From Lachnospiraceae bacterium (GTDB taxonomy: Bacteria > Bacillota > Clostridia > Lachnospirales > Lachnospiraceae), in the NCBI GenBank assembly GCA_017436865.1, contig JAFSCH010000101.1:1-35683 (forward strand): a DNA stretch of 35,683 nt, in the 5' to 3' direction. Shown piece by piece: positions 2,062 through 32,345 of this stretch. The notes beneath the pieces were generated by a model. The model saw nothing but the letters and a program-made list of their open reading frames with translations, searched no databases and was not told where the DNA came from. The translations under genes and the position numbers were made by a program. How positions within the stretch are numbered: the stretch's first letter is position 1; each line of letters begins with the position of its first letter.

Positions 2062-2078
2062 TAGAAGGAGAATAGATA

Positions 2079-2107: not shown

Positions 2108-2111
2108 ATTT

Positions 2112-2140: not shown

Positions 2141-2145
2141 GTACA

Positions 2146-2169
2146 TAGTGCGTGCGCTGGCACGCACTA
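2146..2169 (+). promoter_or_regulatory. 10-bp hairpin just upstream of the flagellin 2 ribosome-binding site
   Basis: TAGTGCGTGC (2146-2155) and GCACGCACTA (2160-2169) form a perfect stem with loop GCTG, the same loop as the terminator at 202-230. There is no T-run. It ends 8 nt before the GGGGAG (2178-2183) of the second flagellin gene, so it could influence translation or mark a processing site. Confidence 0.55.
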
Positions 2170-2192
2170 TTTATTAAGGGGAGAGACGAGAG

Positions 2193-4009: not shown

Positions 4010-4058
4010 TATGCAAAATGAATGACATAATAAATAGACGGAAAAAGGGGAGATAATG

Positions 4059-5129: not shown

Positions 5130-5139
5130 GGGGGAGAAA

Positions 5140-6207: not shown

Positions 6208-6229
6208 ACTGAAATGGAGGTAGTTAAGC

Positions 6230-7294: not shown

Positions 7295-7350
7295 GAGTAT
7301 CGAGGCTGATAATACAAAATTGCGATAAGGCGTGTAGAAAGGGGAGCAAC

Positions 7351-13149: not shown

Positions 13150-13902
13150 GTGGTTGATGTTATGAATGGACTAAATGATGCTGTTAATGGCAGTATACTC
13201 TTCATCATCAAGGATGATGGCAGAGATTTGAAGTATGAAAATGCATGCAGAATTTGGAAAATGGATGCTGTCATTGAACATGCATCTCAGAAGGGCTTTA
13301 AAAAAGCGATTGAGGAAGATTATGACATGGTTGTGGTAGATGATTATCTGGGTGATAAATCCGGCTACACCTTGTCTATTGAAATCCTTAATCGCAAAAA
13401 TGTCTTACTATATCTGTTAGGAAATGACAAGGATGACATTAGCGTAATCGGTGCATTCCGTGCAGGAATTACCGATTACATACGTTCTGATGTATCAGCA
13501 ATACAGTTGGCAGCGCGTTGTAATACGACCATTATGCGCAGTCATGCAATGAATGGAGGACATCGAAAACGAACCAAGAATGAGGATAAAATTGTCATAG
13601 AGGATTTTGTTCTTGATCTTTGGAACTGCTGTGTAGAGGCAAATGGCCAAAAGGTGATGCTCAACAAAATGGAGATGGAGGTTCTACGAGTTCTCATGGA
13701 GAATCCGGAAAGGGTTTTTACTAAGCAGGAAATCTATGAAAAGGCATGGAAGGCACATTATGTTCCCGGAGAAAATAGTGTAGCAACTCATATGCATAAG
13801 ATAAGAAAACGACTGGAAAAGATAGGGGCAGAAGGACACATTGAGACGAAATGGGGGATCGGGTATCGGTTTCGGGTAAAAGCGGCCCAAAGAAAAGGAT
13901 AA
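13150..13902 (+). CDS. Response-regulator-like protein with OmpR/PhoB winged helix
   Basis: 250 residues. The first about 125 resemble a receiver domain: acidic pair D22-D23 after the first strand (ILFIIKDDGRD), and a probable phospho-acceptor at D64 (DMVVVDDYLGDKSGY). The conserved Thr after strand 4 is replaced (LLYLLGNDKD) and the usual Lys-Pro is Arg-Ser (DYIRSD), so phosphorylation may be altered or lost. Residues about 148-245 are an OmpR/PhoB winged helix (LNKMEMEVLRVLMENPERVFTK, then THMHKIRKRLEKIG, ending KWGIGYRFR). The start is GTG with GAGAGG at good spacing; ATG at 13162 is an alternative. No histidine kinase is in the window. It may control the adjacent surface-protein gene or the glycan genes (inference). 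Confidence 0.85.
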   Translation: MVDVMNGLNDAVNGSILFIIKDDGRDLKYENACRIWKMDAVIEHASQKGFKKAIEEDYDMVVVDDYLGDKSGYTLSIEILNRKNVLLYLLGNDKDDISVIGAFRAGITDYIRSDVSAIQLAARCNTTIMRSHAMNGGHRKRTKNEDKIVIEDFVLDLWNCCVEANGQKVMLNKMEMEVLRVLMENPERVFTKQEIYEKAWKAHYVPGENSVATHMHKIRKRLEKIGAEGHIETKWGIGYRFRVKAAQRKG

Positions 13903-13954
13903 TGGCAAATAATCAGAAAAAATAGGAAAAAATACAATAATTACATGGCGATTT

Positions 13955-13974
13955 GTGAAAAACTGTGCTAAACT
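13955..13974 (+). promoter_or_regulatory. Candidate promoter of the cytidylyltransferase operon
   Basis: AAACTGTGCTAAACT contains an extended -10-like TG-N-TAAACT (13966-13974). The 11-mer AAACTGTGCTA is identical to that in the promoter at 18930-18958, and a GCGATT/TCGCAA-like block lies upstream in both. The -10 hexamer is poor, so this call rests mainly on similarity to the better members. Confidence 0.4.
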
Positions 13975-14125
13975 ATAGGTAGACATAATATATTAGCAAT
14001 ATGTGAACTGAAAAAGTTTGCTTTTTGCATAAAAAGGACATACAAAATATATAATTGTTTTATAGAAAAGGTCGATATAAATAAAAAGAGAAGCTGCTTG
14101 ATAAATGCCGATGGGGGGATTGCAA

Positions 14126-15508
14126 ATGAAAAAGGTTATCACATATGGTTCCTTTGATTTGTTCCATGAAGGACATTATAATATATTAAAAAGAGCAAAG
14201 GAATTAGGAGATTATCTCATTGTCGGAGTGACAACAGAGCAATTTGATGAATCAAGAGGAAAGCTTAATGTAGTAGACTCATTGGTTGATCGAATAGAGA
14301 ATGTGAAAAAGACAGGCTTTGCTGATTTGATTATTGTAGAGGATCATGTAGGGCAGAAGGCTGAAGATATTCAAAAATATGATGTGGATACCTTTGTGCT
14401 TGGCTCCGATTGGACAGGTCATTTTGATTATCTGAAGGATTTATGTGAAGTAGTATATTTGGAAAGAACAAAGGATATATCCAGTACTATGCTTCGAAAT
14501 GAAAAATATCCAATTATCCGAATGGGGGTTATTGGAACAGGTAGAATTGCAGCTCGTTTTGTCCCGGAAGCAAAGTATGTCAGTGGTGTGATTGTGACAA
14601 GTGTGTTTAATCCAAATGAGGAAAGTGCAGAAAACTTTGCAGACCGCTTTGATTTAGAGCTGTACACCAATGATTTGGATAAATTCTTAAATAATGTGGA
14701 TGCTGTTTATATTGCATCTCCGCATGAAACACATTATGAATATGCGAAGAAAGCATTGCTTGCTGGTAAGCATGTTTTGTGTGAAAAACCAATGACTTTG
14801 AAAAAAAGCTATGCAGAAGAATTGTTCCGTATATCGAAAGAGAGAAAGTGTGTCCTACTTGAGGCAATTAAGACAGCATTCTGTCCAGGATTTAAACAGC
14901 TTCTTGGTGTGGCACGAAGTGGCATTATAGGACAAATTCGAGATGTTGAGGCATGTTTTACAAGACTTGCAGCGGAAGGCGTACGAGAGAAAACAGATAC
15001 CAAATATGGTGGAGGTTTTCTGGAGTTTGGAAGCCATACATTATTGCCAATTTTTAAGCTCATGGGAACAGATTATGAGGACGTAAGATTCGATAGTATT
15101 TTAGATGAGAATGGTTTGGATATGTATACCAAAGTTTCTTTTTCCTATGAAAAGGGAATGGCATTGTCTAAAAGTGGTGTTGGCGTAAAGTCAGAAGGTC
15201 AGTTGTTGATTTCAGGAACAAAGGGGTATATTTTGGCAGAATCGCCATGGTGGTTAACGAAGTCCTTCGAGGTTCGTTTTGAAGATCCTAATATTAGGGA
15301 GACTTATTCAGCAAAGTTTCTTGGAGATGGTTTACGATATGAAATTAGTGAATTTATAAATATGATTCATAATGGAGAATTAAAGAGTTATAAATTTACA
15401 GAAGAAGAATCGATTGCCATTGCAGGAGTAGTAGAAAAGTTCCTAGAAGAACGTAAAAAAAAAGTCGAACGTATGGGCTTGAAGAGTGTAGATAAAAATA
15501 TTGCTTAA
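14126..15508 (+). CDS. Bifunctional TagD-like cytidylyltransferase / Gfo-Idh-MocA dehydrogenase fusion
   Basis: About 460 residues in two domains. Residues about 1-130 are a glycerol-3-phosphate-type cytidylyltransferase: YGSFDLFHEGH carries the HxGH signature, and RTKDISSTMLR corresponds to the RTxGISTT motif with Asp for Gly. Residues about 135-455 are an NAD(P)-dependent Gfo/Idh/MocA oxidoreductase: VIGTGRIA nucleotide-binding loop, CEKPM with the catalytic Lys, and GGGFLEFGSH. The likely role is to oxidise or reduce a sugar/polyol (phosphate) and activate it as a CDP derivative, analogous to the TarI-TarJ type fusion that makes CDP-ribitol, but built from different families. GGGGGG (14113-14118) fits the ATG at 14126; an in-frame ATG at 14105 lacks one. 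First gene of a three-gene operon. Confidence 0.87.
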   Translation: MKKVITYGSFDLFHEGHYNILKRAKELGDYLIVGVTTEQFDESRGKLNVVDSLVDRIENVKKTGFADLIIVEDHVGQKAEDIQKYDVDTFVLGSDWTGHFDYLKDLCEVVYLERTKDISSTMLRNEKYPIIRMGVIGTGRIAARFVPEAKYVSGVIVTSVFNPNEESAENFADRFDLELYTNDLDKFLNNVDAVYIASPHETHYEYAKKALLAGKHVLCEKPMTLKKSYAEELFRISKERKCVLLEAIKTAFCPGFKQLLGVARSGIIGQIRDVEACFTRLAAEGVREKTDTKYGGGFLEFGSHTLLPIFKLMGTDYEDVRFDSILDENGLDMYTKVSFSYEKGMALSKSGVGVKSEGQLLISGTKGYILAESPWWLTKSFEVRFEDPNIRETYSAKFLGDGLRYEISEFINMIHNGELKSYKFTEEESIAIAGVVEKFLEERKKKVERMGLKSVDKNIA

Positions 15509-15527
15509 TGTGTATTGTGGGGATGAC

Positions 15528-16700
15528 ATGAAGATTGGAATACAGACAGCAGGAGTACTAGAAGCGAAAAGTGTAGAAACAGATATTGCTATGTTAAAAA
15601 AGATAGGCATAGAGACAGTGGAATTGGAACTGAATAAGGAACATTTGTCAAAGAATTATTATCAGTCTTTGAAGAATGCATTAGAATTACAAAGGATTAC
15701 CATTTCACAGGTACATATGCCAGCCTTACCAGAGGTGTCTTTGGGAGGAGAAGGAACAGAAAAGATGTTGCATATTATGCAAGAGTGCATAGAATTATGC
15801 AGTTGGTTAGGATGCCCTTATTTTATTGTGCATCCTTTTTCTGTTGCAAGGAATTATACAGACAGAAGAATAGGAAAAGAACAGGAAAAAAATATAAATC
15901 AGGATTTTTTCAAAAGCTTGATTTCGTTTGCGAAGAAATACCAGGTTATGATATGCCTTACCAATGAACTCGATAATGTAAATGGACATTTATGTATGGG
16001 GTGCTGTAGTACAGTGCAAGAGGTGAAGGAATATATAGATACCCTGAATGCGATAGCAGGGGAAGAATGCTTTGGCTTTTGCTTACATATGGGACGCGCG
16101 CTTTTACTATCTACGGATATAAGAGAAATGCTTTTGATGTTAAATAATAGAGTAAAGACGGTTCAGCTGTGTGAAAACGATGGTATCAGGGATATGGCTA
16201 TGCCGCCATTTACAAGCTATACAGTTGCAGGACAGAAATATTGGGATGGGCTTATAAGAGGACTTCAGAAGATTGGATATGAAGGAGACTTAATTGTGAC
16301 AGTAAGGGGATTTATAGGCGGAATCCCGAGTACTTTGAAGTGGGATACTATACAATGGTTACAAAAGATATTATCACATATAAGAGAAAAAGTGGATTTT
16401 GTTAATGTATTACAATCGGATAAAAAGCTATATTTATTTGGTTCTGGTAACGGGTTTGATAATTTTATGAAGTATTATGGAAATGTATGTGAGCCGGTGG
16501 CGATTCTTGATAATAACCAAGCTAAATGGGGAACGAGAAAAAACGGTCTGGAAATCTGTAGCCCACAGATTCTTTTGCAGGAAAACCTAGAACGGATACA
16601 AATCGTGATATGTAATATATTTTTTCTTGAAATTGAAGAACAACTGCGAAAAATGGGGATTGAGAATATTTGTCGCTATGAAGAACTACAAGCTTTTTAA
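15528..16700 (+). CDS. TIM-barrel epimerase-like pseudoenzyme with C-terminal Rossmann-like module
   Basis: 390 residues. The first about 290 align clearly with the next gene (Xyl-isomerase-like/AP-endonuclease-2 TIM barrel): both have LxCPYxxVHPF, GEECFGFC and ENDG/DNDG. At the expected metal ligands it differs from its neighbour: FEN becomes LTN, FDVGHAN becomes LHMGRAL, LHLHDND becomes VQLCEND, and FETYPG becomes VTVRG. Classical metal-dependent isomerisation is therefore unlikely. From about 297 on, KLYLFGSGNGFDNF and VAILDNN start a Rossmann-like module seen in other genes of the locus. It may be a regulatory or scaffolding partner of the next gene. ATG at 15528 follows GGGG; the longer TTG start at 15501 would overlap the previous gene and lacks a ribosome-binding site. 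Confidence 0.78.
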   Translation: MKIGIQTAGVLEAKSVETDIAMLKKIGIETVELELNKEHLSKNYYQSLKNALELQRITISQVHMPALPEVSLGGEGTEKMLHIMQECIELCSWLGCPYFIVHPFSVARNYTDRRIGKEQEKNINQDFFKSLISFAKKYQVMICLTNELDNVNGHLCMGCCSTVQEVKEYIDTLNAIAGEECFGFCLHMGRALLLSTDIREMLLMLNNRVKTVQLCENDGIRDMAMPPFTSYTVAGQKYWDGLIRGLQKIGYEGDLIVTVRGFIGGIPSTLKWDTIQWLQKILSHIREKVDFVNVLQSDKKLYLFGSGNGFDNFMKYYGNVCEPVAILDNNQAKWGTRKNGLEICSPQILLQENLERIQIVICNIFFLEIEEQLRKMGIENICRYEELQAF

Positions 16701-16731
16701 GAGATGACTGGAAGAGGGGAGCTGAAAAGTA

Positions 16732-17694
16732 TTGAAGGTAGGAGTGCAGTCAAAGGGAATTATCATAGATACGAATATAGAAGAAGGCTTTCAGAGAATA
16801 AAGGAAGCAGGCTTTCAATGTATAGACTTTAGCTTAGATCAATATATGGTGAATTCTGATATATATGCAGGGAAAAATCTTCACTTTTTTGATAAAAGTG
16901 AAGATGAGATTAGGGACTATTTTTCCAAGCATCATGATTATGCAAAAAAGTATGGATTATCCTATTCTCAAATGCATATGCCATACCCGCTTTATGTGTA
17001 CGGAAAGGAAGAGATAAGCCAATATATGTGGGAGCAGGTCGTTCCGAAGAGCTTATTGGTTTGTGAAACATTGGAGTGTCCATATATTGTAGTACATCCG
17101 TTCAAAATAAGAACACAGCTTGGTATAGAAGCAGAGAAGGAAGAAAATATTCGCTTTTTTAAGAAGCTAATTCCTATGCTAAGAGGAAAAACATATAAAA
17201 TCTGTTTTGAGAATCTATATGAAAACAGGAATGGAAGACTAGTTCCGGGAGTGTGTGCCTATCCGGAAGAAGCTATATATTACCTTGATACCTTGAATGA
17301 GATGGCAGGTGAAGAATGCTTCGGATTTTGCTTTGATGTTGGTCATGCAAATCTGATAGGTATGGATATGTATCGAATGATAACGATGCTAGGAAATAGA
17401 TTGAAGGTATTGCATCTTCATGATAATGACGGAATCTATGATTTGCATCAGATTCCGTATACATTCACCAGAGAACGTGGAAAGGCATTGGCTACAGACT
17501 GGGAAGGTGTATTACAGGGATTGAGGGATATCGGATTTGGAGGAACATTGAGCTTTGAAACGTATCCCGGCATGAGCTGTTTTCCGGAAAGCATAAAACA
17601 AAAGGTTTTGGAATTGATTGCTGAAATAGGAAAAGAAATGCAGCAAAGAATTTTGATATTTCCTACGCCGGATTCAGAGGTTACTCTGTATTAA
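16732..17694 (+). CDS. Sugar (phosphate) isomerase/epimerase, TIM barrel
   Basis: 320 residues of the Xyl-isomerase-like/AP-endonuclease-2 family (D-tagatose 3-epimerase, inosose and hydroxypyruvate isomerase relatives). The four expected metal ligands are visible: Glu in ICFENLYE, Asp in CFDVGHAN, His in VLHLHDNDG and Glu in LSFETYPG. It probably interconverts keto and aldo forms, or C3 epimers, of a sugar that feeds the cytidylyltransferase-dehydrogenase two genes upstream; the exact substrate cannot be read. The start is TTG with AGGGGAG about 10 nt upstream; no better start precedes the conserved MKVGVQ. It is the active-looking paralogue of the preceding gene, and the operon ends in a terminator 27 nt later. 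Confidence 0.85.
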   Translation: MKVGVQSKGIIIDTNIEEGFQRIKEAGFQCIDFSLDQYMVNSDIYAGKNLHFFDKSEDEIRDYFSKHHDYAKKYGLSYSQMHMPYPLYVYGKEEISQYMWEQVVPKSLLVCETLECPYIVVHPFKIRTQLGIEAEKEENIRFFKKLIPMLRGKTYKICFENLYENRNGRLVPGVCAYPEEAIYYLDTLNEMAGEECFGFCFDVGHANLIGMDMYRMITMLGNRLKVLHLHDNDGIYDLHQIPYTFTRERGKALATDWEGVLQGLRDIGFGGTLSFETYPGMSCFPESIKQKVLELIAEIGKEMQQRILIFPTPDSEVTLY

Positions 17695-17720
17695 TAGTGA
17701 TAGTAAGTGAATAAAATGAG

Positions 17721-17766
17721 TCGTGGATTTTATTAAAGAATACTTGATGAAATCCACGATTTTTTA
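17721..17766 (+). terminator. Rho-independent terminator
   Basis: TCGTGGATTT (17721-17730) and AAATCCACGA (17750-17759) form a perfect 10-bp stem with a 19-nt loop, followed by TTTTTT. It ends the cytidylyltransferase/epimerase operon. Confidence 0.9.
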
Positions 17767-17826
17767 TTGTAGTATTTCGAAATTATAAAAAATATATAAA
17801 CTAGACACGAATTATTACATTTGAAT

Positions 17827-17904
17827 TTTACAGAACATTAACAATATGTTATAGTAAATCATCATTTCATGAAATGCATTTCAAAAAAAACCTGTATTCA
17901 CAGG
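17827..17904 (+). promoter_or_regulatory. Rpn leader module, copy 1 (promoter, palindrome, hairpin)
   Basis: TTTACA (17827-17832), 17 nt, TATAGT (17850-17855) is a good sigma-A promoter. Downstream come a perfect 14-bp palindrome TGAAATGCATTTCA (17870-17883) and a hairpin CCTGTATTCACAGG (17891-17904). The same ordered set with the same promoter hexamers and spacing occurs at 25307-25382 before the other Rpn-like gene, so it is a conserved unit and not chance. Confidence 0.75.
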
Positions 17905-17945
17905 GAAATTTCCAAAGATAAAACAAATGGTAAGGAGGATTGCCA

Positions 17946-18893
17946 ATGGCAATAGAAATACAATGTGATAACGTGGATGTTACAGAAATATATCCAGAAG
18001 GGTATACGTTTAATCTAAGTGATTTTGCACTATTTTTATCTGTAATGAAGGAGAAGAAAGCATATCAAAATGTACTTAGTATAATTTTGGATGAGCCGGA
18101 TGTAAAAGTAACTGAGGTAAAAGTAGAGCAAGTTATCCTGAATAAGTTTGGGAAACGTGCAATAAGATTGGATGCGTGGGGAAGAACAGAGGATGATAGA
18201 CAGGTAAATATTGAAATGGAAAATCATGCGGAAAAAGATAATATTCCAAAACGCTCCAGATTTTATCAGGGATTGATTGATACACCAATATTAAAAGCTG
18301 GTAAAAAAACGAAATATAAACAATTGCCCTCGACAATCATTATTTTTATTACTCAAGATGATATATTTAAGAAGGACTTGGCTATGTATACATTCACAGA
18401 ACAGTGTGAAGAAATTCAAGGTTTGCATCTCGGGGATGGTACAAAGAAGATATTTTTGAATATGTCTAGTAAAAATGGTTCCAAAGAACTTGTAAGTTTG
18501 TTACAATATATGAAGAATACAAGATTAGATAATCCTGAGATACAAGTGCAGGATGACAGAATTGTTGAACTGGACAAAATAGTAACAGAAGTAAAAGAAT
18601 CAGAGGAATGGGAGGAAGTCAAGATGAACATTTTGGAATTAGGAATGACAAAAGGTGTCGAACTTGGCATTCAACAAGGCATTCAACAAGGTATGCAAAA
18701 GGGAGAATATAAAAAGCTTATTGAATTGGTGGGTAAGAAACTTACAAAACAATATTCAATAGAAGAGATTGCTAATATATTAGATGAGGATGTGACAATT
18801 ATTCAAAATATCGTAGAAATAGCTCAGAAGTATGCACCTGAGTATGATACGGCTAAAATATTAAAGGAACTGTGGGAAAGTAATAAAAATTAA
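17946..18893 (+). CDS. Rpn-family nuclease (PD-(D/E)XK, 'putative transposase' family), copy 1
   Basis: About 315 residues. The N-terminal PD-(D/E)XK-like half includes FALFLSVMKEKK, the core IRLDAWGRTEDDRQVNIEMEN (Asp, then Glu-x-Glu) and RSRFYQGLID. The C-terminal part is a helical tail with short GIQQG repeats, then GEYKKLI and a YSIEEIANILDED segment. Rpn proteins (RpnA type) are DNA nucleases that raise recombination; in Lachnospiraceae they are numerous and often mislabelled as transposases. There are no inverted repeats or target duplications here. AGGAGG (17933-17938) fits the ATG at 17946 better than the TTG at 17940. It splits the biosynthetic genes into two operons and has its own promoter; it is probably an accessory insertion unrelated to glycan synthesis. 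Confidence 0.85.
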   Translation: MAIEIQCDNVDVTEIYPEGYTFNLSDFALFLSVMKEKKAYQNVLSIILDEPDVKVTEVKVEQVILNKFGKRAIRLDAWGRTEDDRQVNIEMENHAEKDNIPKRSRFYQGLIDTPILKAGKKTKYKQLPSTIIIFITQDDIFKKDLAMYTFTEQCEEIQGLHLGDGTKKIFLNMSSKNGSKELVSLLQYMKNTRLDNPEIQVQDDRIVELDKIVTEVKESEEWEEVKMNILELGMTKGVELGIQQGIQQGMQKGEYKKLIELVGKKLTKQYSIEEIANILDEDVTIIQNIVEIAQKYAPEYDTAKILKELWESNKN

Positions 18894-18929
18894 AGTAATC
18901 AGATAATTGTAAAAATATACAAAAACCTA

Positions 18930-18958
18930 TCGCAATTAACATAAAACTGTGCTATAAT
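18930..18958 (+). promoter_or_regulatory. Promoter of the aldolase-TagF operon
   Basis: TCGCAA (18930-18935), 17 nt, TATAAT (18953-18958) with an extended -10 (TGC before TATAAT). The block from TATCGCAATTAACATAA onward is repeated at 26514-26544 before the next operon, showing a shared promoter type. Confidence 0.75.
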
Positions 18959-19033
18959 AAGTTCAATATAATAATGCGCAGTTGGTATGTGTAAGTCGAC
19001 TGTTGGATGCGGTGCATGGAGTGGGGGTATATC

Positions 19034-19066
19034 AAAGGAAGCGGATACAATGCCGCTTCCTTTGTT
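19034..19066 (+). terminator. Leader hairpin/attenuator before the aldolase gene
   Basis: AAAGGAAGCGG (19034-19044) pairs perfectly with CCGCTTCCTTT (19053-19063) around loop ATACAATG, followed by GTTGT. It lies about 70 nt downstream of the expected transcription start and 33 nt before the start codon. Such a stem can terminate transcription within the leader, implying readthrough control. The T-run is short, so strength is uncertain. Confidence 0.65.
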
Positions 19067-19098
19067 GTATGGATAATGGAATAAAAAGGGATTTGACA

Positions 19099-19917
19099 AT
19101 GGAAAATTATTTATCAAATGAAAAAACAATATTTGCATTTAATATATGGGATATTAATTCTGCTAAAGCAGTAATCGATGTGGCGGCGGACGTAAATAAA
19201 AATATTATTTTACAAACTTCATCTAGCATTTTTCAGAGTATGCCAAAGCGGCAAATGAGGGATTTTGTAAGCAGTTATTCTGTAGATAAAAAAATAAAAG
19301 TATGGCTTCATTTGGATCACTGTAAAAAAGAGGAGCTGATTAAAGAAGCAATAAAATTTGGCTGGGATTCGGTAATGATAGATGTATCGGATAAAGAATT
19401 GTCGGAGAATATTAGGATTACGAATGAAATAACGGCATATGCACATGACCAAAAAGTGCTTGTGGAGGCAGAGGTTGGTCGGGTAAAAGGTGTAGAAGAT
19501 GATGTTGATGGACGTGATGGTGCGGTAGCATCAATGCAGGATATTACCAGATTTTTGGAAGAGACTAATATTGATATGATTGCAGTGGCATTTGGGAACG
19601 CACATGGAATATATCATGGAACACCCAAGCTTTGCTATGATTTGGTCGAGTATACTGTTGGACAGACAGATATTCCATTCGTTGTTCACGGGGGAAGTGG
19701 ACTGAGAGATGAAATCCTAAAAAAGCTGATGAAAATACACAATGTAAAAAAAATAAATATATCCACAGATGTGAAGCTTGCATACCGAAAAGGAATTATG
19801 CAGGCATATTATGATGGGAAAATGGAAGAGGATGGATTTCAGGCGGTTATAGTAGAGCAATATATTCATAATGCGATTAAGGAAATGGTAGAAAGCAAAC
19901 TTGCACTATTGAAATAA
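19099..19917 (+). CDS. Class II (zinc) ketose-bisphosphate-type aldolase
   Basis: 272 residues, the usual size for the FbaA/GatY/KbaY group. Conserved features: LHLDH with catalytic Asp and zinc His, VEAEVGRV, the second zinc His in GNAHGIYHG, the third in VVHGGSG, and the phosphate-binding NISTD. It reversibly joins DHAP with an aldehyde. In this setting it could make or cut the carbon skeleton of the polyol to be CDP-activated (inference). A longer frame from 18982 exists, but it would run through the promoter-proximal leader and attenuator stem. AAAGGG 8 nt before ATG 19099 and the family's usual N-terminus favour the short form. First gene of a five-gene operon. Confidence 0.87.
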   Translation: MENYLSNEKTIFAFNIWDINSAKAVIDVAADVNKNIILQTSSSIFQSMPKRQMRDFVSSYSVDKKIKVWLHLDHCKKEELIKEAIKFGWDSVMIDVSDKELSENIRITNEITAYAHDQKVLVEAEVGRVKGVEDDVDGRDGAVASMQDITRFLEETNIDMIAVAFGNAHGIYHGTPKLCYDLVEYTVGQTDIPFVVHGGSGLRDEILKKLMKIHNVKKINISTDVKLAYRKGIMQAYYDGKMEEDGFQAVIVEQYIHNAIKEMVESKLALLK

Positions 19918-19955
19918 AGAGCTTGTTGGAGATTTACATTTTGGGGGGAATGAGC

Positions 19956-21488
19956 ATGAGTAATGTAATGGTTGTTAATATGGGGTTGAAAAGTATACGT
20001 TGTATTATTTTTAGCCATCTTGGTACCAAACTTGGAAGTGCAGCGATAGCAATTAATACGGCAATCAATGATAAATGTGTAGAGCAGGAACCGACAGAGT
20101 GGTGGGAAAAAGCGAAAAAGGTTATGAGAAAGGCTTATGCTGATGCAAAGGTAAAAAGGGTAGATTATGTGACCGTTACAACATCAGCTTCCTGCCTTGT
20201 CTGTGTGGATACAGAAGGAGAAGCATTGGGGAAGGCTTTGATGATATCAGATAAGCGGGCGGAAGAAGAAGCTGATTGGATAGCAAAGTTACCTGAGTTT
20301 GAAAAAGTACATAAGTCAACAGGACTGGATATGGCAGTAAGCCTAATGCTTCCTAAGATATTATGGGTAAAAAGGAAAAGACCGGATATTTTTGATAAAA
20401 CAAGGTATTTTTTAACACCTAATGATTATTTGATTTATAAATTATGTGGTACATGTGTAACGGATTATTTTAATGCCACAAAATATCATTATGATTTGGA
20501 GGAAAAGAAATATCCAGATGCGCTATTACAAAAAATAGAGATTTCGTCCAACATGTTTCCAGAGGTTGTAAATACAGGAGAAGCAGTTGGAAGAGTATAT
20601 GCAAGTCTGTCACAGGAACTGGGAATAAATGATGACTGTAAAGTGGTAGTAACTTCTTATGATGCGATTTGTTCCTTTATAGGAAGTGGTGTTTCCGAAG
20701 AAGGAGAAGCAAGCGATGTGTCCGGTACAGTTACCGTATTTCGAACATTTAGTAAGAAAAAGGATATAGGAAAGAGTAATAAAATATATAACATGCCATT
20801 TTATCAGGAGAATGCGCAGATTGTTGGTGGTTCTAATAATTTGGGTGGCGGACTGATTGAATGGGTGAAACAGTGCTATTATTTGAAAGAGGAATATCCG
20901 TATGAGATTATGGAAAAGGACGCCAGAGAATCGGAAATTGGGGCACGTGGACTGATATTTTTACCATATCTTTTGGGGGAAAGAACTCCGCTTTGGGATG
21001 ATAATGCAAGAGGTGTATTTTTTGGATTGGAAAGAATGCATACACGTAAAGATATGACTAGAGCTGTGTTTGAGAGCACAGGCTTTATTGATATGGATAT
21101 TATTGAGGCCATTAGAGAAACTGGTGTTGAAGTAGAGTCAGTTCGTTTATCGGGAGGACTTGCGCGATTAAATCTCATTTCACAAATTAAAGCGGATATA
21201 TTAGGGCGTGATGTCATGGTTTTGGCAGAATTTGAAACAACGGCTTCCGGTGCTGCAATGATGGTATTGATGGGGCAAGGTGTGTTTAGCAATCAGAAGG
21301 AAGCAGCAGAGAAGTTTGCAATGGTGCGAATGATAATTAGACCGGATATGGAAAGTCACAAGCGCTATGAATATATGTATGAACTATACAAGGATACTTA
21401 TCAATCGTTAAAAGGACTGTTTGCAAGAAGAAAGCAAATAATTGAAGAAATACGAAGTGACCGTGAGGTTAGAATAGAGAATTTGTAG
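19956..21488 (+). CDS. FGGY-family carbohydrate kinase
   Basis: About 510 residues, the usual length for xylulokinase/rhamnulokinase relatives. The second half has the family signatures: catalytic Asp in VVTSYDAICSFIGSG, SGTVTV, the YLLGERTPLWDDNARG segment and the adenine-binding LSGGLARLNLISQIKAD. The N-terminal phosphate loop, normally xDxGTTS, reads VNMGLKSIRC, with the metal-binding Asp replaced by Asn, so activity may be altered. The likely reaction is ATP-dependent phosphorylation of a ketose or polyol that feeds the neighbouring aldolase or dehydrogenase. GGGGGG (19943-19948) is 7 nt from ATG 19956; the upstream TTG and ATG starts are too distant or too close. It starts 38 nt after the aldolase stop, in the same operon. 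Confidence 0.86.
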   Translation: MSNVMVVNMGLKSIRCIIFSHLGTKLGSAAIAINTAINDKCVEQEPTEWWEKAKKVMRKAYADAKVKRVDYVTVTTSASCLVCVDTEGEALGKALMISDKRAEEEADWIAKLPEFEKVHKSTGLDMAVSLMLPKILWVKRKRPDIFDKTRYFLTPNDYLIYKLCGTCVTDYFNATKYHYDLEEKKYPDALLQKIEISSNMFPEVVNTGEAVGRVYASLSQELGINDDCKVVVTSYDAICSFIGSGVSEEGEASDVSGTVTVFRTFSKKKDIGKSNKIYNMPFYQENAQIVGGSNNLGGGLIEWVKQCYYLKEEYPYEIMEKDARESEIGARGLIFLPYLLGERTPLWDDNARGVFFGLERMHTRKDMTRAVFESTGFIDMDIIEAIRETGVEVESVRLSGGLARLNLISQIKADILGRDVMVLAEFETTASGAAMMVLMGQGVFSNQKEAAEKFAMVRMIIRPDMESHKRYEYMYELYKDTYQSLKGLFARRKQIIEEIRSDREVRIENL

Positions 21489-21496
21489 GAGTAGAA

Positions 21497-22633
21497 ATGA
21501 TAGAATTCAGTATGGAATTGTCAACAAAAATCTATTTTGGGACAGGGATTACGAAGGAAGCTCTGGAAAAGGAAAAGCGCTGGTTTGATAAAAAAAATAT
21601 TTTACTTATTACAACAGGACGCTCTCTTATAAAATATGGTTATTTGGAGAGATTGGAACAAATATTAAAAAAGCTATCACCATGTAGTCGTATTGTGATT
21701 TATGACAAAATAAGTCCGAATCCCAGACTTTCAGAGGTAAGAGAAGCATCAGAGTTGGGGATAGAAAATGATGTACAAATTGTTATCGGTTTTGGTGGTG
21801 GAAGTGCATTGGATGCGGCAAAAGCGGTAGCAGCAGGCGTTGCGGATATTGATTTGTTGGAAAATTTTCTGTTGAAAGGGCTGGAACCAACGGAGAAAAC
21901 ATTACCAATGATAGCGATACCAACAACGGCGGGGACTGGAAGTGAATTGAGCAAAGCAGCGATTTTGTCGAGCCATGAGCATCATATAAAGAGTGGTATA
22001 CGCGGAAAATATATGCAACCTAAGGTGGCGATAGTAGATGCGGTTTACACATGGTCTGTTCCTGAAAGAATTACTATGGAAACGGGGTTTGATGTATTGG
22101 CACATGCAGCGGAAAGCTATGTGGCAGTAAAGGCTAATTTGTTTTCAGAAATGTTATCAGAGAAGGCGATTAAAATAGTTGGGAAAAGTCTTTCTACATT
22201 AAAAAAAGATTTAGATGATCACGAGGCTAGAGAGCAGATGGCTTTTGCGAGTATGATTATGGGAATGAATCTTGCGAATGTTGGGACTGCGTTACCACAT
22301 AGGATGCAATATCCGATTGGTATAGAAACGGACACTAGTCATGGAGCAGGACTGATTGCCCTATATCCGTCATGGATACAGCATGAACAGGAAGTTAATC
22401 CTCAGAAGGTTCGAACAATATTAGAATGGCTCGGATTAAAAAGTGCTTCTGCAAGTGATGCGTTTAAGGATTTACAAGAACAGTGGGATATATCCTATAC
22501 GTTGCAAGCGTTTGGTATAGAAAAAAATAGGTTAAATACATTAGCAGAACAAGTTACTGGGAATGTTGGAAATGATAAATTGGCAAATTGTTCGGGAATT
22601 ATAAACACTATATTAGAGGAATCATTTAGCTAA
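21497..22633 (+). CDS. Iron-containing (group III) alcohol dehydrogenase
   Basis: 378 residues, typical of the family of propanediol, butanol and phosphonoacetaldehyde reductases. NAD-binding motifs are GFGGGSALDAAK and PTTAGTGSE. Metal ligands are visible as Asp/His in GFDVLAHAAE and the two His in LPHRMQYPIG and DTSHGAG. It reduces an aldehyde or ketone to an alcohol, or the reverse. Between a kinase/aldolase pair and a nucleotidyltransferase, a likely job is to reduce an aldose or keto-phosphate to a polyol (phosphate) before activation. A phosphonoacetaldehyde reductase role was considered, but no phosphonate genes (PEP mutase, decarboxylase) are present. AGGAG precedes the ATG by 5 nt; 8 nt after the kinase stop. 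Confidence 0.88.
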   Translation: MIEFSMELSTKIYFGTGITKEALEKEKRWFDKKNILLITTGRSLIKYGYLERLEQILKKLSPCSRIVIYDKISPNPRLSEVREASELGIENDVQIVIGFGGGSALDAAKAVAAGVADIDLLENFLLKGLEPTEKTLPMIAIPTTAGTGSELSKAAILSSHEHHIKSGIRGKYMQPKVAIVDAVYTWSVPERITMETGFDVLAHAAESYVAVKANLFSEMLSEKAIKIVGKSLSTLKKDLDDHEAREQMAFASMIMGMNLANVGTALPHRMQYPIGIETDTSHGAGLIALYPSWIQHEQEVNPQKVRTILEWLGLKSASASDAFKDLQEQWDISYTLQAFGIEKNRLNTLAEQVTGNVGNDKLANCSGIINTILEESFS

Positions 22634-22650
22634 GTTTTAAGGGGGATGTT

Positions 22651-23391
22651 ATGCAAGCAGTTATTATGGCAGCAGGAAAAGGAAGCAGGTTGGGGAAGCT
22701 GACAGAGGATAAACCAAAGTCGTTTCTTGAAATAAACGGAATTAAATTAATAGAATATAATATTGCATTATTACATGCTTATGGTGTAAAAGACATAATC
22801 ATAGTGACGGGATACCAGACTGAAAAAATGGAAGAGTTTGCACATAAGATAGAAGGTGTCAGATGTGTGTACAATCCTTTTTATGAAATGGTAAATGTGC
22901 TTGGTTCATTCTTTATGGCTCAGGAGTATTTGCATGAAGATACGATATATATGCATGCGGATACACTGTGTGCACCGGAAATATTAGAGAAGATGATACA
23001 GACAGATGGTGATATGGTACTTCCTGTGGAGTATAAGCGCTGTGATGAAGAGGCAATGAAGGTGCTGACCGAGGGTGGAAGAGTAGTAAAAATCAGCAAA
23101 TTAATTCCATGCGAAAAAGCAGAGGGGGAATTTATCGGTATAGCTAAGATAGGAAAGGAAGTATTGCCGGAATTAAGAAAGGCTTCCAAAAGTGTCTTAA
23201 TGAAGAAAGAGTTCTCCTCATATTTTGAAGGAGCGATACAGGAACTGATTGACTGGGGAAATGATAGAATCGTAACAACAGATACAGAAGATTATTTTTG
23301 GGGAGAAGTAGATTTTCTGGAAGATTATCGATATGCAACAGAGAATATTTCAAGAAGGCTTGTTGAGATAGCAAAAACGTGGAAGGGGTAA
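22651..23391 (+). CDS. LicC-like sugar/polyol-phosphate nucleotidyltransferase
   Basis: 246 residues of the MobA-like NTP transferase family. It begins with the signature QAVIMAAGKGSRL, then KPKSFLEINGIKLIEY and a YMHADTL metal-site motif, and ends with GEVDFLEDY. The best-known close relatives are LicC (CTP:phosphocholine) and other CTP-dependent enzymes of similar size, so a CDP-linked product is likely. It sits directly before a TagF-like transferase that would use such a CDP donor. In C. difficile a nucleotidyltransferase/CDP-glycerol-transferase-like pair modifies flagellin, a useful parallel. GGGGG lies 6 nt before the ATG. Its substrate need not be that of the TagD-like domain upstream; two distinct CDP products are possible. 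Confidence 0.87.
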   Translation: MQAVIMAAGKGSRLGKLTEDKPKSFLEINGIKLIEYNIALLHAYGVKDIIIVTGYQTEKMEEFAHKIEGVRCVYNPFYEMVNVLGSFFMAQEYLHEDTIYMHADTLCAPEILEKMIQTDGDMVLPVEYKRCDEEAMKVLTEGGRVVKISKLIPCEKAEGEFIGIAKIGKEVLPELRKASKSVLMKKEFSSYFEGAIQELIDWGNDRIVTTDTEDYFWGEVDFLEDYRYATENISRRLVEIAKTWKG

Positions 23392-23399
23392 GAGTTTCT

Positions 23400-24596
23400 A
23401 TGGGGACAAAAACAGAAGAAGCATATATAAAGAAAAGAAAAAGAAAAGCTTTACGAGTGAATATGCTTTATCATTTAATGCGGATATTCCCTGTGAAGAA
23501 AAATAAGGTTGTATTTACAGCTTTTGAAGGTGATGGAGGCTATTGTTGCAATCCTAGATATATAGCAGAAGAATTACTGAAAAGAAAGAAAAACTATGAA
23601 ATAGTATGGCTTGTTAATAACATGAATCGACAGTTTCCGGAAGGAATTCGGAAAGTAAAAAATACTTTCCTGAATAGAGTATATCATCTCACAACTGCCA
23701 AGGTATGGGTGGATAACAGCAGAAAAGCTTATGGAACAGCCAAAAGAAAGAAGCAGTTATATATTCAGACATGGCATGCTGCGTTGGAATTCAAACCGGT
23801 CGGAAAGTTCAGAGGTGAATTGTTTCCAAAGATAGCATATTTGGTTAGTGAGTATGATTCTAAGTTGGCCAATTATGTTACTTCTAATTCGGAATGGTGT
23901 ACGAAATTGTATCCAGAAATGTTACTTTATGATGGGGAGATTATCAAAACAGGTTCGCCAAGGTGTGATGTTTTGATAAATAGACATGAGGAATTATACA
24001 GAGAAATTCGTGAGCGATATGGAGTACCGCAGGATTCGAAAATAGTAATGTTTGCACCAACCTTTAGAGGCGGTAGTCAGAAAGGAAAAAGGCAGGTGTT
24101 TGCAGAGGAGCCAACGTTGGATTTTGAACTATTAACCAAGACTTTACAGGAACGTTTTGGAGGAGAATGGTATGTGTTTTTGCGCCTACATCCACAGCTT
24201 GCGGCACAGTTAGAAAGTATGCCATTAGTTCATAAATCAAAGCATATGATTGATGTGAGCCAGGCTGATGATATGAATGAGGTGATGACGGCAGCAGATG
24301 TTTTTGTTACAGATTATTCCAGTTCAGCATTTGATGCTATTAATATACACATGCCAGTATTTTTGTATGCTGATGATTTGCAGGATTATCTAGGTGAGCG
24401 CGGAAAATTGATGTGGGATATGTTTTCGTTGCCATTCAGTGTTGCACAGACGAATGAACAGCTTAGGAGAGACATATTACAGTTTGATATGGAACAATAT
24501 AGAAAGGCTGTTGATGAATTGCTAGAAGAACATGGTGTGCTTGAAGATGGAAAGGCAAGTGAAAGAGTTGTGGATGTGATAGAAAGTGTTTTGTAG
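23400..24596 (+). CDS. TagB/TagF-like CDP-polyol phosphotransferase
   Basis: About 398 residues of the CDP-glycerol glycerophosphotransferase family. Typical motifs: QTWHAALEFK (family QTWHGTPLK, with the usual Gly-Thr replaced), TSNSEW, GSPRCDVL, MFAPTFRG, LRLHPQ, and VTDYSSSAFDA followed by LYADDLQDY. These enzymes move a polyol phosphate from CDP to a sugar or growing chain on the inner membrane face. No membrane helix is evident. The substrate is presumably the product of the preceding nucleotidyltransferase or the TagD-like fusion. GTG at 23379 overlaps the previous gene and has no ribosome-binding site, whereas AAGGGG lies 11 nt before ATG 23400. Last gene of the operon. The acceptor could be a flagellin glycan, teichoic-acid-like polymer or capsule. 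Confidence 0.86.
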   Translation: MGTKTEEAYIKKRKRKALRVNMLYHLMRIFPVKKNKVVFTAFEGDGGYCCNPRYIAEELLKRKKNYEIVWLVNNMNRQFPEGIRKVKNTFLNRVYHLTTAKVWVDNSRKAYGTAKRKKQLYIQTWHAALEFKPVGKFRGELFPKIAYLVSEYDSKLANYVTSNSEWCTKLYPEMLLYDGEIIKTGSPRCDVLINRHEELYREIRERYGVPQDSKIVMFAPTFRGGSQKGKRQVFAEEPTLDFELLTKTLQERFGGEWYVFLRLHPQLAAQLESMPLVHKSKHMIDVSQADDMNEVMTAADVFVTDYSSSAFDAINIHMPVFLYADDLQDYLGERGKLMWDMFSLPFSVAQTNEQLRRDILQFDMEQYRKAVDELLEEHGVLEDGKASERVVDVIESVL

Positions 24597-24628
24597 AATT
24601 TGTAATGGTGTTTGGATGTTTATTGGTA

Positions 24629-24763
24629 ATGGGAAACTATCTGAATCTTGGAAAGAATAAGTTTAAAGAGGCAATAAACTCAGAAATATATGTAGATAAA
24701 ACCATACTTATTACCGTGGCCAACAGGCTTATGTATATGATGCAAAAGAATAGCTGTATTTGA
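24629..24763 (+). pseudogene. Remnant of an AAA-ATPase/PD-(D/E)XK (DUF1703-type) gene
   Basis: The 44-codon frame starts MGNYLNLGKNKFKEAIN and continues with YVDKT. This is the characteristic N-terminus of the large AAA-ATPase-like plus nuclease proteins common in Lachnospiraceae (MGxYLNPGxxxFxxALNSxxYVDKT). It ends at a TGA before the expected ATP-binding motif, and nothing after it continues the protein. It is a dead fragment, probably left by deletion. Confidence 0.6.
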
Positions 24764-24802
24764 CTGGGATAAGTAGATGAGAAGATGGTGTGAAATATTG
24801 TG

Positions 24803-24831
24803 AAAAGTGATCCTAATCGGGTCGCTTTTTT
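24803..24831 (+). terminator. Rho-independent terminator
   Basis: AAGTGATCC (24805-24813) pairs with GGGTCGCTT (two G-U pairs) around a short loop, followed by TTTTTT. It probably ends transcription of the aldolase-TagF operon, 210 nt after the last gene. Confidence 0.75.
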
Positions 24832-24894
24832 AATTCTTTTCATAGATCATGTGAATGACATAAGTGGCGTAAATGTGATGTTCATCATAAAATT

Positions 24895-25245
24895 TCAAAA
24901 TTACTCAAAATGTACTAAGTATTATTCTTGATGAACAAGATGTAAAGGTATCAGAAGTGAAAATGGTTCAAAAGAGCTTGTAAGTTTGTTACATTATATG
25001 AAGAATACAACGTTAGATAATCCTGAAATTCAAGTAAAAGATGAAAGGATTATAGAACTGGACAAAATAGTAACAGAAGTAAAAGAATCAAAGGAAGTTA
25101 AAATGAATATTTTAGAAATAGGCATGGCAAAAGGCGAACAAATAGGCATGACTAAAGGCGAATATAAGAAACTTATCTCATAAACCTGTAAGAAACTTGA
25201 TAAAGGGTATACAGTGGAAACATTTCTAGTACTTATCCTCGTGTA
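24895..25245 (+). pseudogene. Rpn-family nuclease pseudogene
   Basis: The left part (24895-24965) matches the N-terminal region of the Rpn gene at 17946 (codons for QNVLSIILDE and DVKV.EVK). It then jumps to the sequence for NGSKELVSLLQYMKNT, so several hundred bases are missing and the frame is broken. The right part is intact for about 65 codons and then has a TAA (25181-25183) where the sister gene at 25482 has CAA in the LISQTCKKL stretch; homology continues past it (CKKLDKGYTVE). Deletion plus nonsense mutation make it a pseudogene. Confidence 0.85.
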
Positions 25246-25306
25246 AGAAAATAGAATTCAAAATATAAAAGATTTTTAAAATAGTAATGAGTTTTTACAT
25301 TTCAAG

Positions 25307-25382
25307 TTTACAAGATAATATGCCTGTGCTATAGTAAGTCGAAAGTTCAAGAAATGCATTTCAGAATACCTGTATTCACAGG
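25307..25382 (+). promoter_or_regulatory. Rpn leader module, copy 2 (promoter, palindrome, hairpin)
   Basis: TTTACA (25307-25312), 17 nt, TATAGT (25330-25335) with extended TGC; then palindrome GAAATGCATTTC (25351-25362) and hairpin CCTGTATTCACAGG (25369-25382) followed by GGAAATT, as in the copy at 17827-17904. It is about 100 nt from the start codon here against about 40 nt in copy 1, and the promoter hexamers are identical. Confidence 0.75.
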
Positions 25383-25481
25383 GAAATTCCATCAGTTAAT
25401 GACAAGTAAATAAAGTAAAAAGAATCAGATAATGAAAATGTCTTTGCACATGCATTATTTTGATTTATAATGGAGGTACGA

Positions 25482-26471
25482 ATGAAACGGAAAAAATGGA
25501 ATATCCACAGATTTTTAGGCATATTTTATCCGAATCGTAAATACAAGGATCGATTATTCCAGAGAGTATTTCGGGAAAAGGAAGATTTGCTGGACTTATA
25601 TAATGCAATGAATCAGACCGAGTATACAGATGCCAGTGAATTAAAGATTACGACCTTAGAGGATGCGATATATTTGTCGATGAAAAATGATATCTCATTT
25701 GTGATATCAGCGACCTTGAATCTATATGAACAACAGTCTACTTTTAATCCCAATATGCCAGTTCGCGGATTGATGTATTTCGCCAGATTATATGAGGCAT
25801 ATATCAATGAAAATAAGCTTGATATTTATGGAAGAAAATTAATCAAACTTCCGGATCCACAGTATGTGATTTTTTATAACGGACGAGAAGAACAGCCGGA
25901 TATGTTGGAATTAAAGCTGTCAGATGCATTTGAAGGAAAGGAAGGTATAGATTATTCCTTAGAATGTAAAGCAAAGCTTCTGAATATCAATATGGAGCAT
26001 AATCAGAGACTGTTACAAAAATGTAAGAGATTGTATGATTATTCGTATTTTATAGCAACGGTAAATGCAAATCTGGATCAAGGTATACGACTTGTAGAGG
26101 CTATCAGAAAAGCGATGGATATCTGTATTGAGCAAGGAATTTTGGAGGATATTCTTTTAAAGAGTAAAAGCGAGGTATTTCATATGTTGTTGACAGAGTA
26201 TGATGAGAAAAAACATTTGAAAAATACTTACAATGAAGGATATGAAAGTGGACAAAGAGAAGGATATGAACATGGGCAGCAGAGTGGCGAATATAAGAAG
26301 CTTATCTCACAAACCTGCAAAAAGCTGAGAAAAGGATATTCTGTAGAAGAAATAGCTGAGTTTTTAGAAGAGGATATAAGTGTTATTTGTAAGATTGTAG
26401 AAGCAGCCAAAATGTATGCGCCAGAGTATGACATAGAAAAGATTTTTGAACAGTTATGGTCAGATAAATAG
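25482..26471 (+). CDS. Rpn-like nuclease family protein, copy 2 (different N-terminal type)
   Basis: About 329 residues. The N-terminal half differs from the Rpn protein at 17946 and is the type with DRLFQRVFREKEDLLDLYNA and then MKNDISFVIS...LYEQQSTFNPNMP; the Asp and Glu-x-Gln residues are compatible with a PD-(D/E)XK core. The C-terminal about 75 residues (GEYKKLISQ, YSVEEIAEFLEEDIS, YAPEYDIEKIFEQLW) are closely related to the tail of the first copy and of the pseudogene. The same tail on two different nuclease heads suggests exchange by recombination. GGAGG (25472-25476) places the start at 25482; ATG 25470 overlaps that site. Probably a recombination-promoting nuclease; its role here is unknown. 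Confidence 0.8.
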   Translation: MKRKKWNIHRFLGIFYPNRKYKDRLFQRVFREKEDLLDLYNAMNQTEYTDASELKITTLEDAIYLSMKNDISFVISATLNLYEQQSTFNPNMPVRGLMYFARLYEAYINENKLDIYGRKLIKLPDPQYVIFYNGREEQPDMLELKLSDAFEGKEGIDYSLECKAKLLNINMEHNQRLLQKCKRLYDYSYFIATVNANLDQGIRLVEAIRKAMDICIEQGILEDILLKSKSEVFHMLLTEYDEKKHLKNTYNEGYESGQREGYEHGQQSGEYKKLISQTCKKLRKGYSVEEIAEFLEEDISVICKIVEAAKMYAPEYDIEKIFEQLWSDK

Positions 26472-26515
26472 TTAAACAAAATGTCAGAAAAATAAAAAAA
26501 TACACAAAATTCTAT

Positions 26516-26544
26516 CGCAATTAACATAATTATGTGCTACAATA
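26516..26544 (+). promoter_or_regulatory. Promoter of the GT4-to-fucosyltransferase operon
   Basis: TCGCAA (26516-26521), 17 nt, TACAAT (26539-26544) with an extended TGC. TATCGCAATTAACATAA is identical to the promoter at 18930-18958. It starts a 280-nt leader. Confidence 0.75.
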
Positions 26545-29998: not shown

Positions 29999-30017
29999 AA
30001 TGTGAGAGGATTTTTTG

Positions 30018-31091: not shown

Positions 31092-31119
31092 GAAGAGATG
31101 GTCTAAAGGAGATATAAGG

Positions 31120-32328: not shown

Positions 32329-32345
32329 AAATGGGAGAAAATGTG

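Follow-up and report, generated by a model that had tools for sequence, protein, structure and literature searches.

In the type A flagellin glycan system of C. difficile (genes cd0240-cd0244), CD0242 resembles cytidine triphosphate (CTP):phosphocholine cytidylyltransferase and CD0244 is a TagF-like phosphotransferase, and it has been proposed that a small molecule linked to cytidine diphosphate (CDP) is made and then transferred to the core GlcNAc; threonine has been put forward as that molecule, by way of the phosphoserine-phosphatase-like CD0241, and CD0243 is a methyltransferase (PMC10714395). In the pathways to CDP-6-D-glucitol (C. jejuni HS:5) and CDP-mannitol (S. pneumoniae 35A), a PF01128-type cytidylyltransferase acts on fructose-6-phosphate and an SDR-fold reductase (PF01370) then acts on CDP-fructose; in C. 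jejuni HS:5, activation by CTP thus precedes reduction, and the order of such steps can differ (PMC10918830). The CDP-2-glycerol genes of S. pneumoniae (gtp1-gtp2-gtp3 and wchX) are described as a dehydrogenase, a phosphotransferase, a nucleotidyltransferase and a glycerol phosphotransferase (PMC3493582, PMC6332807), while LicC and PntC activate choline and aminoethylphosphonate (PMC6697681). The locus compared with these systems here lies in a Lachnospiraceae bacterium (assembly GCA_017436865.1, contig JAFSCH010000101.1, positions 1 to 35,683; this whole stretch of 35,683 nucleotides is termed the ‘window’). There, genes for an aldolase (D), a kinase (E), a dehydrogenase (F) and a nucleotidyltransferase (G), together in the window with a TagF-like transferase (H), form what we call the ‘block’; X denotes the compound that the block would activate. 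Upstream lie a fusion gene (A) and two genes for TIM barrel proteins (B and C). All functions given below are deduced from sequence and gene context.

The window resembles the C. difficile type A system in its pairing of a nucleotidyltransferase (G) with a TagF-like transferase (H) near flagellins and glycosyltransferases. An earlier note, made from the window's letters, had remarked that the C. difficile system possesses such a pair without the accompanying metabolic genes, and this agrees with the cluster as described, which includes no aldolase, FGGY kinase or iron-containing alcohol dehydrogenase (PMC10714395). A CD0241-like Pfam match to phosphoserine phosphatase was found in none of the 26 + strand open reading frames (ORFs) of the window that were scanned (412-35300). 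With the CDP-glucitol and CDP-mannitol pathways the block shares a cytidylyltransferase, a reductase and, presumably, a CDP-alditol-type donor for a surface polymer; those pathways, however, consist of two genes, whereas the block employs a LicC-like enzyme and an iron-containing alcohol dehydrogenase, plus a kinase and an aldolase. The unit contains no SDR-fold reductase, its reductases being the iron-containing dehydrogenase (F) and a Gfo/Idh/MocA oxidoreductase (within A). The gtp1-gtp2-gtp3/wchX set follows the same logic of reduction, phosphorylation, activation and transfer, a likeness drawn from gene descriptions rather than protein families, but an aldolase is not among its listed genes. 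Finally, G belongs to the LicC/PntC nucleotidyltransferase superfamily, and LicD is a partner in four block loci; unlike LicC and PntC, G is accompanied by D, E and F. In the CDP-alditol pathways compared, simple reductases are paired with cytidylyltransferases of the IspD-like or TagD-like type, unlike in the block. We rate CDP-activated glycan decoration as a known kind of system, and the donor pathway of the block as unrecognised so far. Literature searches aimed at the four-gene set, or at CDP-erythritol, CDP-threitol, CDP-ethylene glycol, CDP-propanediol and CDP-xylitol, turned up no account of the set, which is weak evidence given that subscription journals were thinly covered.

A four-gene block beside interchangeable transferases

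Genes D, E, F and G probably constitute a dedicated pathway to CDP-X, from which H would attach X-phosphate to a surface glycan through a phosphodiester bond. Their products are as follows.

19096..19917, + strand: D, class II aldolase of the dihydroxyacetone phosphate (DHAP) type (F_bP_aldolase)
19956..21488, + strand: E, FGGY kinase whose substrate-site signature differs from that of GlpK (FGGY_N, FGGY_C)
21497..22633, + strand: F, iron-containing alcohol dehydrogenase (Fe-ADH)
22651..23391, + strand: G, LicC/PntC-like nucleotidyltransferase, presumed CTP-dependent (NTP_transf_3)
23379..24596, + strand: H, TagF-like CDP-alcohol phosphotransferase (Glyphos_transf)

The earlier note had proposed that genes A to H jointly make an unusual polyol phosphate that is activated by CTP and attached by phosphodiester; D to H do look like such a route, while the inclusion of A, B and C in a single pathway finds no support. 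The note had also counted a failure of these genes to occur together elsewhere as evidence against its proposal, and the neighbourhood check instead gave 24 loci among which aldolase, kinase and TagF-like genes recur. With G as bait, 19 close loci were obtained from species genomes (47-65% identity, except for a Patescibacteria locus, L033, at 39%); whole-genome searches with G gave three more (L060, L062, L115) and E as bait added L162, for a total of 24 non-redundant block loci including the window. The presence of the bait gene in these loci is by construction, G having brought 22 of the 23 non-window loci and E the remaining one; the other genes were found without regard to the bait. Rows were dropped where they repeated a contig (L108, that of L030; L116, equal to L028; L157, equal to L018; L159 and L160, equal by coordinates to L032 and L023) or lay inside longer ones (L002 and L003 inside L060 and L062; L064-L066 inside L115, L116 and L108). 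The loci carry record labels of Lachnospiraceae, of Selenomonadaceae and relatives, of Treponema and, for one contig, of Patescibacteria.

E, F and G are present on one strand in all 24 loci (in L019 and L023 two ORFs together make up E, and both loci were counted, unmended, as carrying it), and gaps between core genes are mostly overlaps or shorter than about 60 bases. The class II aldolase D occurs in 21 loci and a class I aldolase in one; in L032 the stretch is cut inside E, so that the D region lies beyond its end. By profiles built from the families, with score thresholds of our own choosing, the 24 loci contain TagF (16), A (10), GDPD (9), LicD (4), flagellin (3) and CDP-alcohol phosphotransferase (1) genes.

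The best evidence that G makes CDP-X is the alternation of transferase families beside this one conserved block. A CDP-dependent transferase adjoins it in 21 of the 24 loci, and belongs to TagF in 16, to LicD in four and to CDP-OH_P_transf in one; these are unrelated families, and their common property is the use of a CDP-linked donor. LicD (136-150 bits) lies 5' of D, with no TagF seen, in L024, L028, L030 and L035 (in the last with a flippase-family gene, Polysacc_synt, in between). The three loci with no visible transferase comprise two that end 66 and 168 bases past G (L025 and L026) and one (L029) that is cut 246 bases before D and whose next 3' ORF is on the minus strand. In the Patescibacteria locus, a DeoC/LacD-family aldolase (135 bits) stands in place of D, separated from E by a single base, and 36 bases beyond G lies a gene for a CDP-OH_P_transf protein (48.9 bits against a cut-off of 22). 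That an unrelated aldolase can stand in for D argues that the aldol step belongs to the pathway, and the exchange of both pathway ends for unrelated proteins is a good argument for a CDP-activated phosphate ester. The use of CTP by G and phosphodiester transfer by H are thus supported indirectly, through the alternation of TagF, LicD and CDP-OH_P_transf.

The genes D, E, F and G have mutually correlated distance matrices (r = 0.68-0.89; none of 2000 permutations was as high for any of the six pairs), based on 18 loci for pairs with D and 19 for the others, with L019, L023, L032, L033 and L162 left out. This is as expected of co-inherited genes, although vertical inheritance alone would also produce correlation. 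Among 24 weaker LicC-like loci (L036-L059, some with short flanks), E was found in none and a 30% relative of F in one, and G is 25-36% identical to the non-block LicC-like genes examined. A phylum-wide search of 398 genomes returned the window and seven distant LicC-like loci, and E, D and F were not found in the six of these that were examined. In plasmids, 190 records match G, with no E or F in the four regions examined, and E matches one record at 30%. In two of those six distant loci, a different iron dehydrogenase (Fe-ADH_2, 90-96 bits) adjoins the LicC-like gene (L140:8695-9753, +, and L144:6953-8002, -), possibly as an analogous ‘reduce-and-activate’ pair.

The combination of kinase, aldolase and alcohol dehydrogenase also follows the established logic of deoxysugar breakdown, and could in principle mark a catabolic operon of the fucose or rhamnose type that lies near surface genes by chance. 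We give this explanation very little credence. A CDP-dependent transferase stands beside the block in most loci, as described above, and the corresponding enzyme models score far below their cut-offs (for E, FucK at 136.7 of 470.9 bits and RhaB at 70.5 of 527.95; for F, lactaldehyde reductase FucO, TIGR02638, its best NCBIfam model, at 191.7 of 523.15). Its neighbours speak against it as well: among 123 proteins of at least 120 amino acids within about 6 kb of the block at 21 loci (from 22 looked at, a set apart from the window and L162), the 25 commonest of 119 Pfam families include no transporter, and consist mainly of glycosyltransferase, radical SAM, nucleotide-sugar epimerase, LicD, flippase, Wzy ligase, GDPD and flagellin families, with a transposon-type domain represented by three members. 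As far as these 25 families go, the neighbours give no sign of the ‘purely catabolic operon with a sugar transporter’ that the earlier note had named as an observation contrary to its proposal.

Enzymes of the block and the compound they may activate

Each Pfam match quoted as best exceeds its gathering score. D matches F_bP_aldolase at 228 bits, and the motifs that we take to be those of DHAP aldolase function (LDH or IDH, GxxHG, HGG or HGA, STxxK) are retained in all 22 aligned rows (20 distinct loci), together with an invariant tryptophan (FN-I/V-W) and a Leu-Gln-x-Ser motif. E matches FGGY_N and FGGY_C (134.7 and 107.9 bits), its best NCBIfam model being xylulokinase at 278.6 bits (cut-off 380.25). 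F matches Fe-ADH at 140 bits, and the aspartate and three histidines of its GFD, AH, LPHR and SH motifs, presumably the metal ligands, are invariant in 25 aligned rows. (L162 is not part of the residue counts for D, E and F, which do contain the repeats L108 and L116.) The best family for G is NTP_transf_3 (52.5 bits), and its closest solved structures are PntC (6pd1, 2.5e-16) and LicC (1jyk, 2.1e-15); H matches Glyphos_transf at 242 bits.

From these computed features (the domains, the retained active-site residues, the conserved block, and its three transferase and two aldolase families) we infer every reaction, the order of reactions, CTP as the nucleotide and the acceptor. X-phosphate would be a small polyol (or hydroxyalkyl) phosphate. 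In the order that we consider most likely, the DHAP-type aldolase D would yield an aldehyde that the iron dehydrogenase F would reduce to an alcohol; the FGGY kinase E would then phosphorylate a primary hydroxyl, G would couple the phosphate to CTP, and H would transfer X-phosphate to the glycan. Alternatively, E might act first, converting a ketose phosphate to a bisphosphate, to be followed by D, F and G. The features of D, E and F allow a short polyol phosphate, and do not name X.

It is conceivable, although we hold this with less than even confidence, that D-E-F-G represents an undescribed route in which the carbon skeleton is set by aldol chemistry, carried as a cross-phylum cassette that works with the host's TagF, LicD or CDP-alcohol phosphotransferase and whose targets include flagellin glycans. 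Candidates for X-phosphate under such a route would be C2-C5 polyol phosphates, for example those of ethylene glycol, propanediol, erythritol or threitol. If the block works as proposed, bacterial surface chemistry would gain a further activated building block, new to it, along with a genetic marker for its recognition, and the alternation of three transferase families would offer a ready panel for matching transferase with donor. Flagellins of gut bacteria in general are objects of antibody studies, and a phosphodiester-linked decoration there would, if true, be worth knowing.

A simpler proposal would be that the genes merely supply CDP-glycerol or CDP-ribitol to a TagF enzyme. H is TagF-like, the first domain of A is TagD-like (112 bits against the TagD equivalog TIGR01518, below the cut-off of 165.4 at which CDP-glycerol synthesis by TagD would be assigned), and E scores 191 bits against a glycerol kinase model whose cut-off is 590. 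However, E lacks all but one of the residues that determine glycerol kinase specificity. Those positions are R83, E84, Y135, D245 and F270 in GlpK (PMC3245297); the window's E has A, S, S, D and V there. Across 22 rows of E, R83, E84 and F270 are never retained, Y135 is retained in four and D245 in all, the usual residues being A or S, mostly S, mostly S, D and mostly V. Such a site of small residues suggests that E is not a glycerol kinase, and perhaps accepts a larger or phosphorylated substrate. Moreover, G groups with LicC and PntC rather than with TagD or IspD/TarI (the IspD family PF01128 matches residues 1-62 rather than the whole length, at 27.7 bits, 0.7 above the cut-off of 27), and glycerol phosphate requires no special aldolase. 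We consider simple glycerol or ribitol supply quite unlikely.

Several observations weigh against a dedicated D-E-F-G pathway or its general use. Most of the loci come from metagenome-assembled genomes. The locus whose G is closest to that of the window (L017, 65%) has no D beside E, and its genome, of unstated completeness, has only distant class II aldolases (36% identity at best), so that D may be replaceable; this also stands against assigning the aldol step to the pathway. The block is rare: G was matched in four of 392 genomes of the window's order, and E in one of 200 in its family (the window's own genome), four of 189 in the family of the L018 genome and one of 286 in the phylum of the L033 genome (L033 itself). 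Among the matches listed, D, E, F, G and H reach no NCBIfam cut-off, which fits a new specificity but leaves no function transferable from a named enzyme. Flagellin genes accompany the block in only the three loci found by profile (with a fragment in L017), and several block loci are polysaccharide loci with flippases; the earlier note's suggestion of flagellin as the target is thus unsupported in general, although in the window the acceptor glycan is probably that on the two neighbouring flagellins. Finally, in the genome of L162 a phosphoenolpyruvate (PEP) mutase gene shares a contig with the block, at a distance of about 15 kb.

This last observation belongs to another possible explanation, namely that the block serves a phosphonate pathway, with G as a PntC-type CMP-phosphonate synthase and F as a phosphonoacetaldehyde reductase. 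The best solved match of G is PntC, F matches the phosphonate dehydrogenase model PsrA, and PEP mutase is above cut-off in five of 13 block genomes tested. The L162 enzyme (404.8 bits, cut-off 319.55) has an N-terminal cytidylyltransferase-like domain, and genes for phosphonopyruvate decarboxylase (463 bits, cut-off 312.5) and aminoethylphosphonate aminotransferase (295 bits, 247 amino acids scanned) lie between it and the block. On the other side, no PEP mutase (TIGR02320, 1e-10) was found in the window's genome (G000; 99.66% complete, 7.68% estimated contamination), nor was one above cut-off in seven of the 12 other block genomes tested. In the five genomes that have it, PEP mutase and block are on different contigs (C237 and C213 in G034, C1 and C2 in G023, C2 and C3 in G822, C50 and C65 in G821, C15 and C30 in G826). 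The match of F to PsrA (185.6 bits) is far under the cut-off of 423.7, the phosphonate module in L162/L163 includes a separate nucleotidyltransferase-like gene (62-66 bits against two models, under their cut-offs), and a phosphonate requires neither a kinase nor a DHAP aldolase. The block can therefore stand beside a phosphonate module and does not depend on one, and we regard a phosphonate product as highly improbable. The L162/L163 contig, from the family of the L018 genome, is a long glycan island in its own right, in which an aminoethylphosphonate module, an A-type fusion and a D-G block occur together.

The fusion and TIM barrel genes upstream of the block

The unit that precedes the block in the window comprises three genes.

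14126..15508, + strand: A, fusion of a TagD-like cytidylyltransferase with a Gfo/Idh/MocA oxidoreductase (Pfam)
15501..16700, + strand: B, xylose-isomerase-like TIM barrel that is extended at the C terminus by a Rossmann-like region seen by eye (Pfam, alignment)
16732..17694, + strand: C, xylose-isomerase-like TIM barrel with an intact metal site (Pfam, alignment)

A matches CTP_transf_like (67.9 bits) and GFO_IDH_MocA (97.2 bits) in Pfam, with its C-terminal domain just under the cut-off of its model (GFO_IDH_MocA_C3, 24.8 bits against 27), and the H..GH and RT..SS positions are invariant across 12 aligned homologues. B and C both match AP_endonuc_2 (58.5 and 64.1 bits). In the alignment C retains the conserved metal-site residues of the fold, which we take to be ligands, whereas B retains two early histidines and has the subsequent E, D, H, H, H and E replaced. 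The family calls of the earlier note were correct for every gene, but its ‘two epimerase paralogues’ are unsafe as a description, because B is without most of the metal-site residues that C keeps. We reject an active epimerase for B on account of the lost ligands; it is likely to be a non-catalytic or altered partner of C. Two NCBIfam models match C below their cut-offs (CbiR phosphodiesterase, 43.7 of 105 bits; IolE, 21.2 of 290), and it is a guess from these that C might have a CbiR-like phosphodiesterase role comparable to that of GDPD.

If A to H all worked towards a single CDP-activated polyol, the fusion and the TIM barrels would contribute to the same product as the block. In favour of this, 14 block loci have 5' sequence of 4 kb or more, and the stretches fetched for 10 of them include A; moreover, L020, L022, L034, L060 and L062 share the gene order A, GDPD, D, E, F, G, TagF (in L162 it is A, GDPD, TagF, E, G, D, F). 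The locus most like the window is L034, which reads flagellin, glycosyltransferase, A, GDPD, D, E, F, G, TagF, with GDPD at the place of B, C and Rpn in the window. However, the other four of those 14 loci (L019, L024, L028, L035) have the block with no A in the fetched stretch. In the 392 order genomes (searched at E-values of at most 1e-60 for A and 1e-40 for G), A was matched in 39, of which 37 are full length, one is in split pieces (G058) and one consists of the oxidoreductase part only (G277); with G in four genomes and both together only in G000 and G225, A is a separate and commoner module. A also brings a cytidylyltransferase domain of its own, and where a genome lacks the block, A lies near GDPD, LicD, TagF, TIM barrels or an aminotransferase. 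Of the 24 block loci as fetched, only the window has barrels of the B/C type (L108, which covers more of the L030 contig, has a cut homologue at its far 3' end). A single pathway from A to H is thus not supported, and we judge it unlikely. We read A-B-C instead as a second module of related logic, often beside D-G, such that two donor-making modules would often serve one glycan.

Several features near A-type fusions elsewhere are worth recording. In L099, A is followed by a B/C-type pair as in the window, and directly 3' of these genes (L099:4930-6723, -) a Gfo/Idh/MocA oxidoreductase is fused to a GDPD phosphodiesterase, which suggests that dehydrogenase and phosphodiesterase share a pathway. 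An Aminotran_1_2 aminotransferase adjoins or lies near the fusion in L106:7949-9010 (-), L126:10126-11184 (-) and L112:7479-8546 (+), and could yield an amino-polyol such as serinol. A family of proteins of about 720-860 amino acids lies beside or near A in L017:2444-5020, L020:1527-4097 and L060:1826-4402, and also in L111, L120, L122 and L123; one member, scanned alone, had no Pfam match, and profile comparison gave an 82.6% probability of a TagF-like segment, so that this family is possibly A's own transferase.

Layout of the window

All eight named genes and an Rpn gene are present on the + strand, and the limits that the earlier note had set for the locus proved right, 14126 being the ATG of A (whose ORF opens at 14105) and 24596 the end of H. 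Judged against homologues, the start codons of D and E are probably at 19096 and 19956 (their ORFs open at 18982 and 19923). The remaining features are:

412-3860: two flagellin genes
4056-8427: four family-2 glycosyltransferases
17718..17762, + strand: terminator-like hairpin of 19 pairs with a T tail, at the end of the A-B-C unit
17940..18893, + strand: Rpn, a PD-(D/E)XK transposase-like nuclease, between the units (PDDEXK_2, TIGR01784)
24802..24830, + strand: terminator-like hairpin 3' of H

The division into two operons split by the Rpn gene (PDDEXK_2, 31.8 bits; TIGR01784, 61.8 bits, cut-off 52.1) is plausible as two transcription units, with terminator-like hairpins after C and after H; eight terminator-like sites occur in 13850-25500, against 4.6 +/- 2.0 in shuffled sequence. 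Matches resembling sigma-28 promoters occur at 283-308 (11/12, before the first flagellin) and 14052-14078 (10/12, before A), and nothing is claimed of the latter, as the window has 17 matches and five shuffles had 17-21. A scan of the window against Rfam returned no match.

A large surface protein and a response regulator are encoded between the glycosyltransferases and A. A second Rpn-like gene lies 3' of H, and beyond it are more glycan genes, including a family-11 glycosyltransferase at 34401. The D-H operon is bracketed on both sides by Rpn genes and an Rpn remnant (17780-18959 and 24905-26544), and these flanks share repeats of 107 nucleotides at 73%, 61 at 82% and 141 at 89%, a pattern that would fit movement of either the operon or the Rpn units through recombination. 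Further downstream (28832-33608), radical SAM, methyltransferase and glycosyltransferase genes carry small terminal Rossmann-like domains of an ‘FGAGN’ type that resemble, by eye, the extension of B, and the gene at 31120 has a match to PglD_N.

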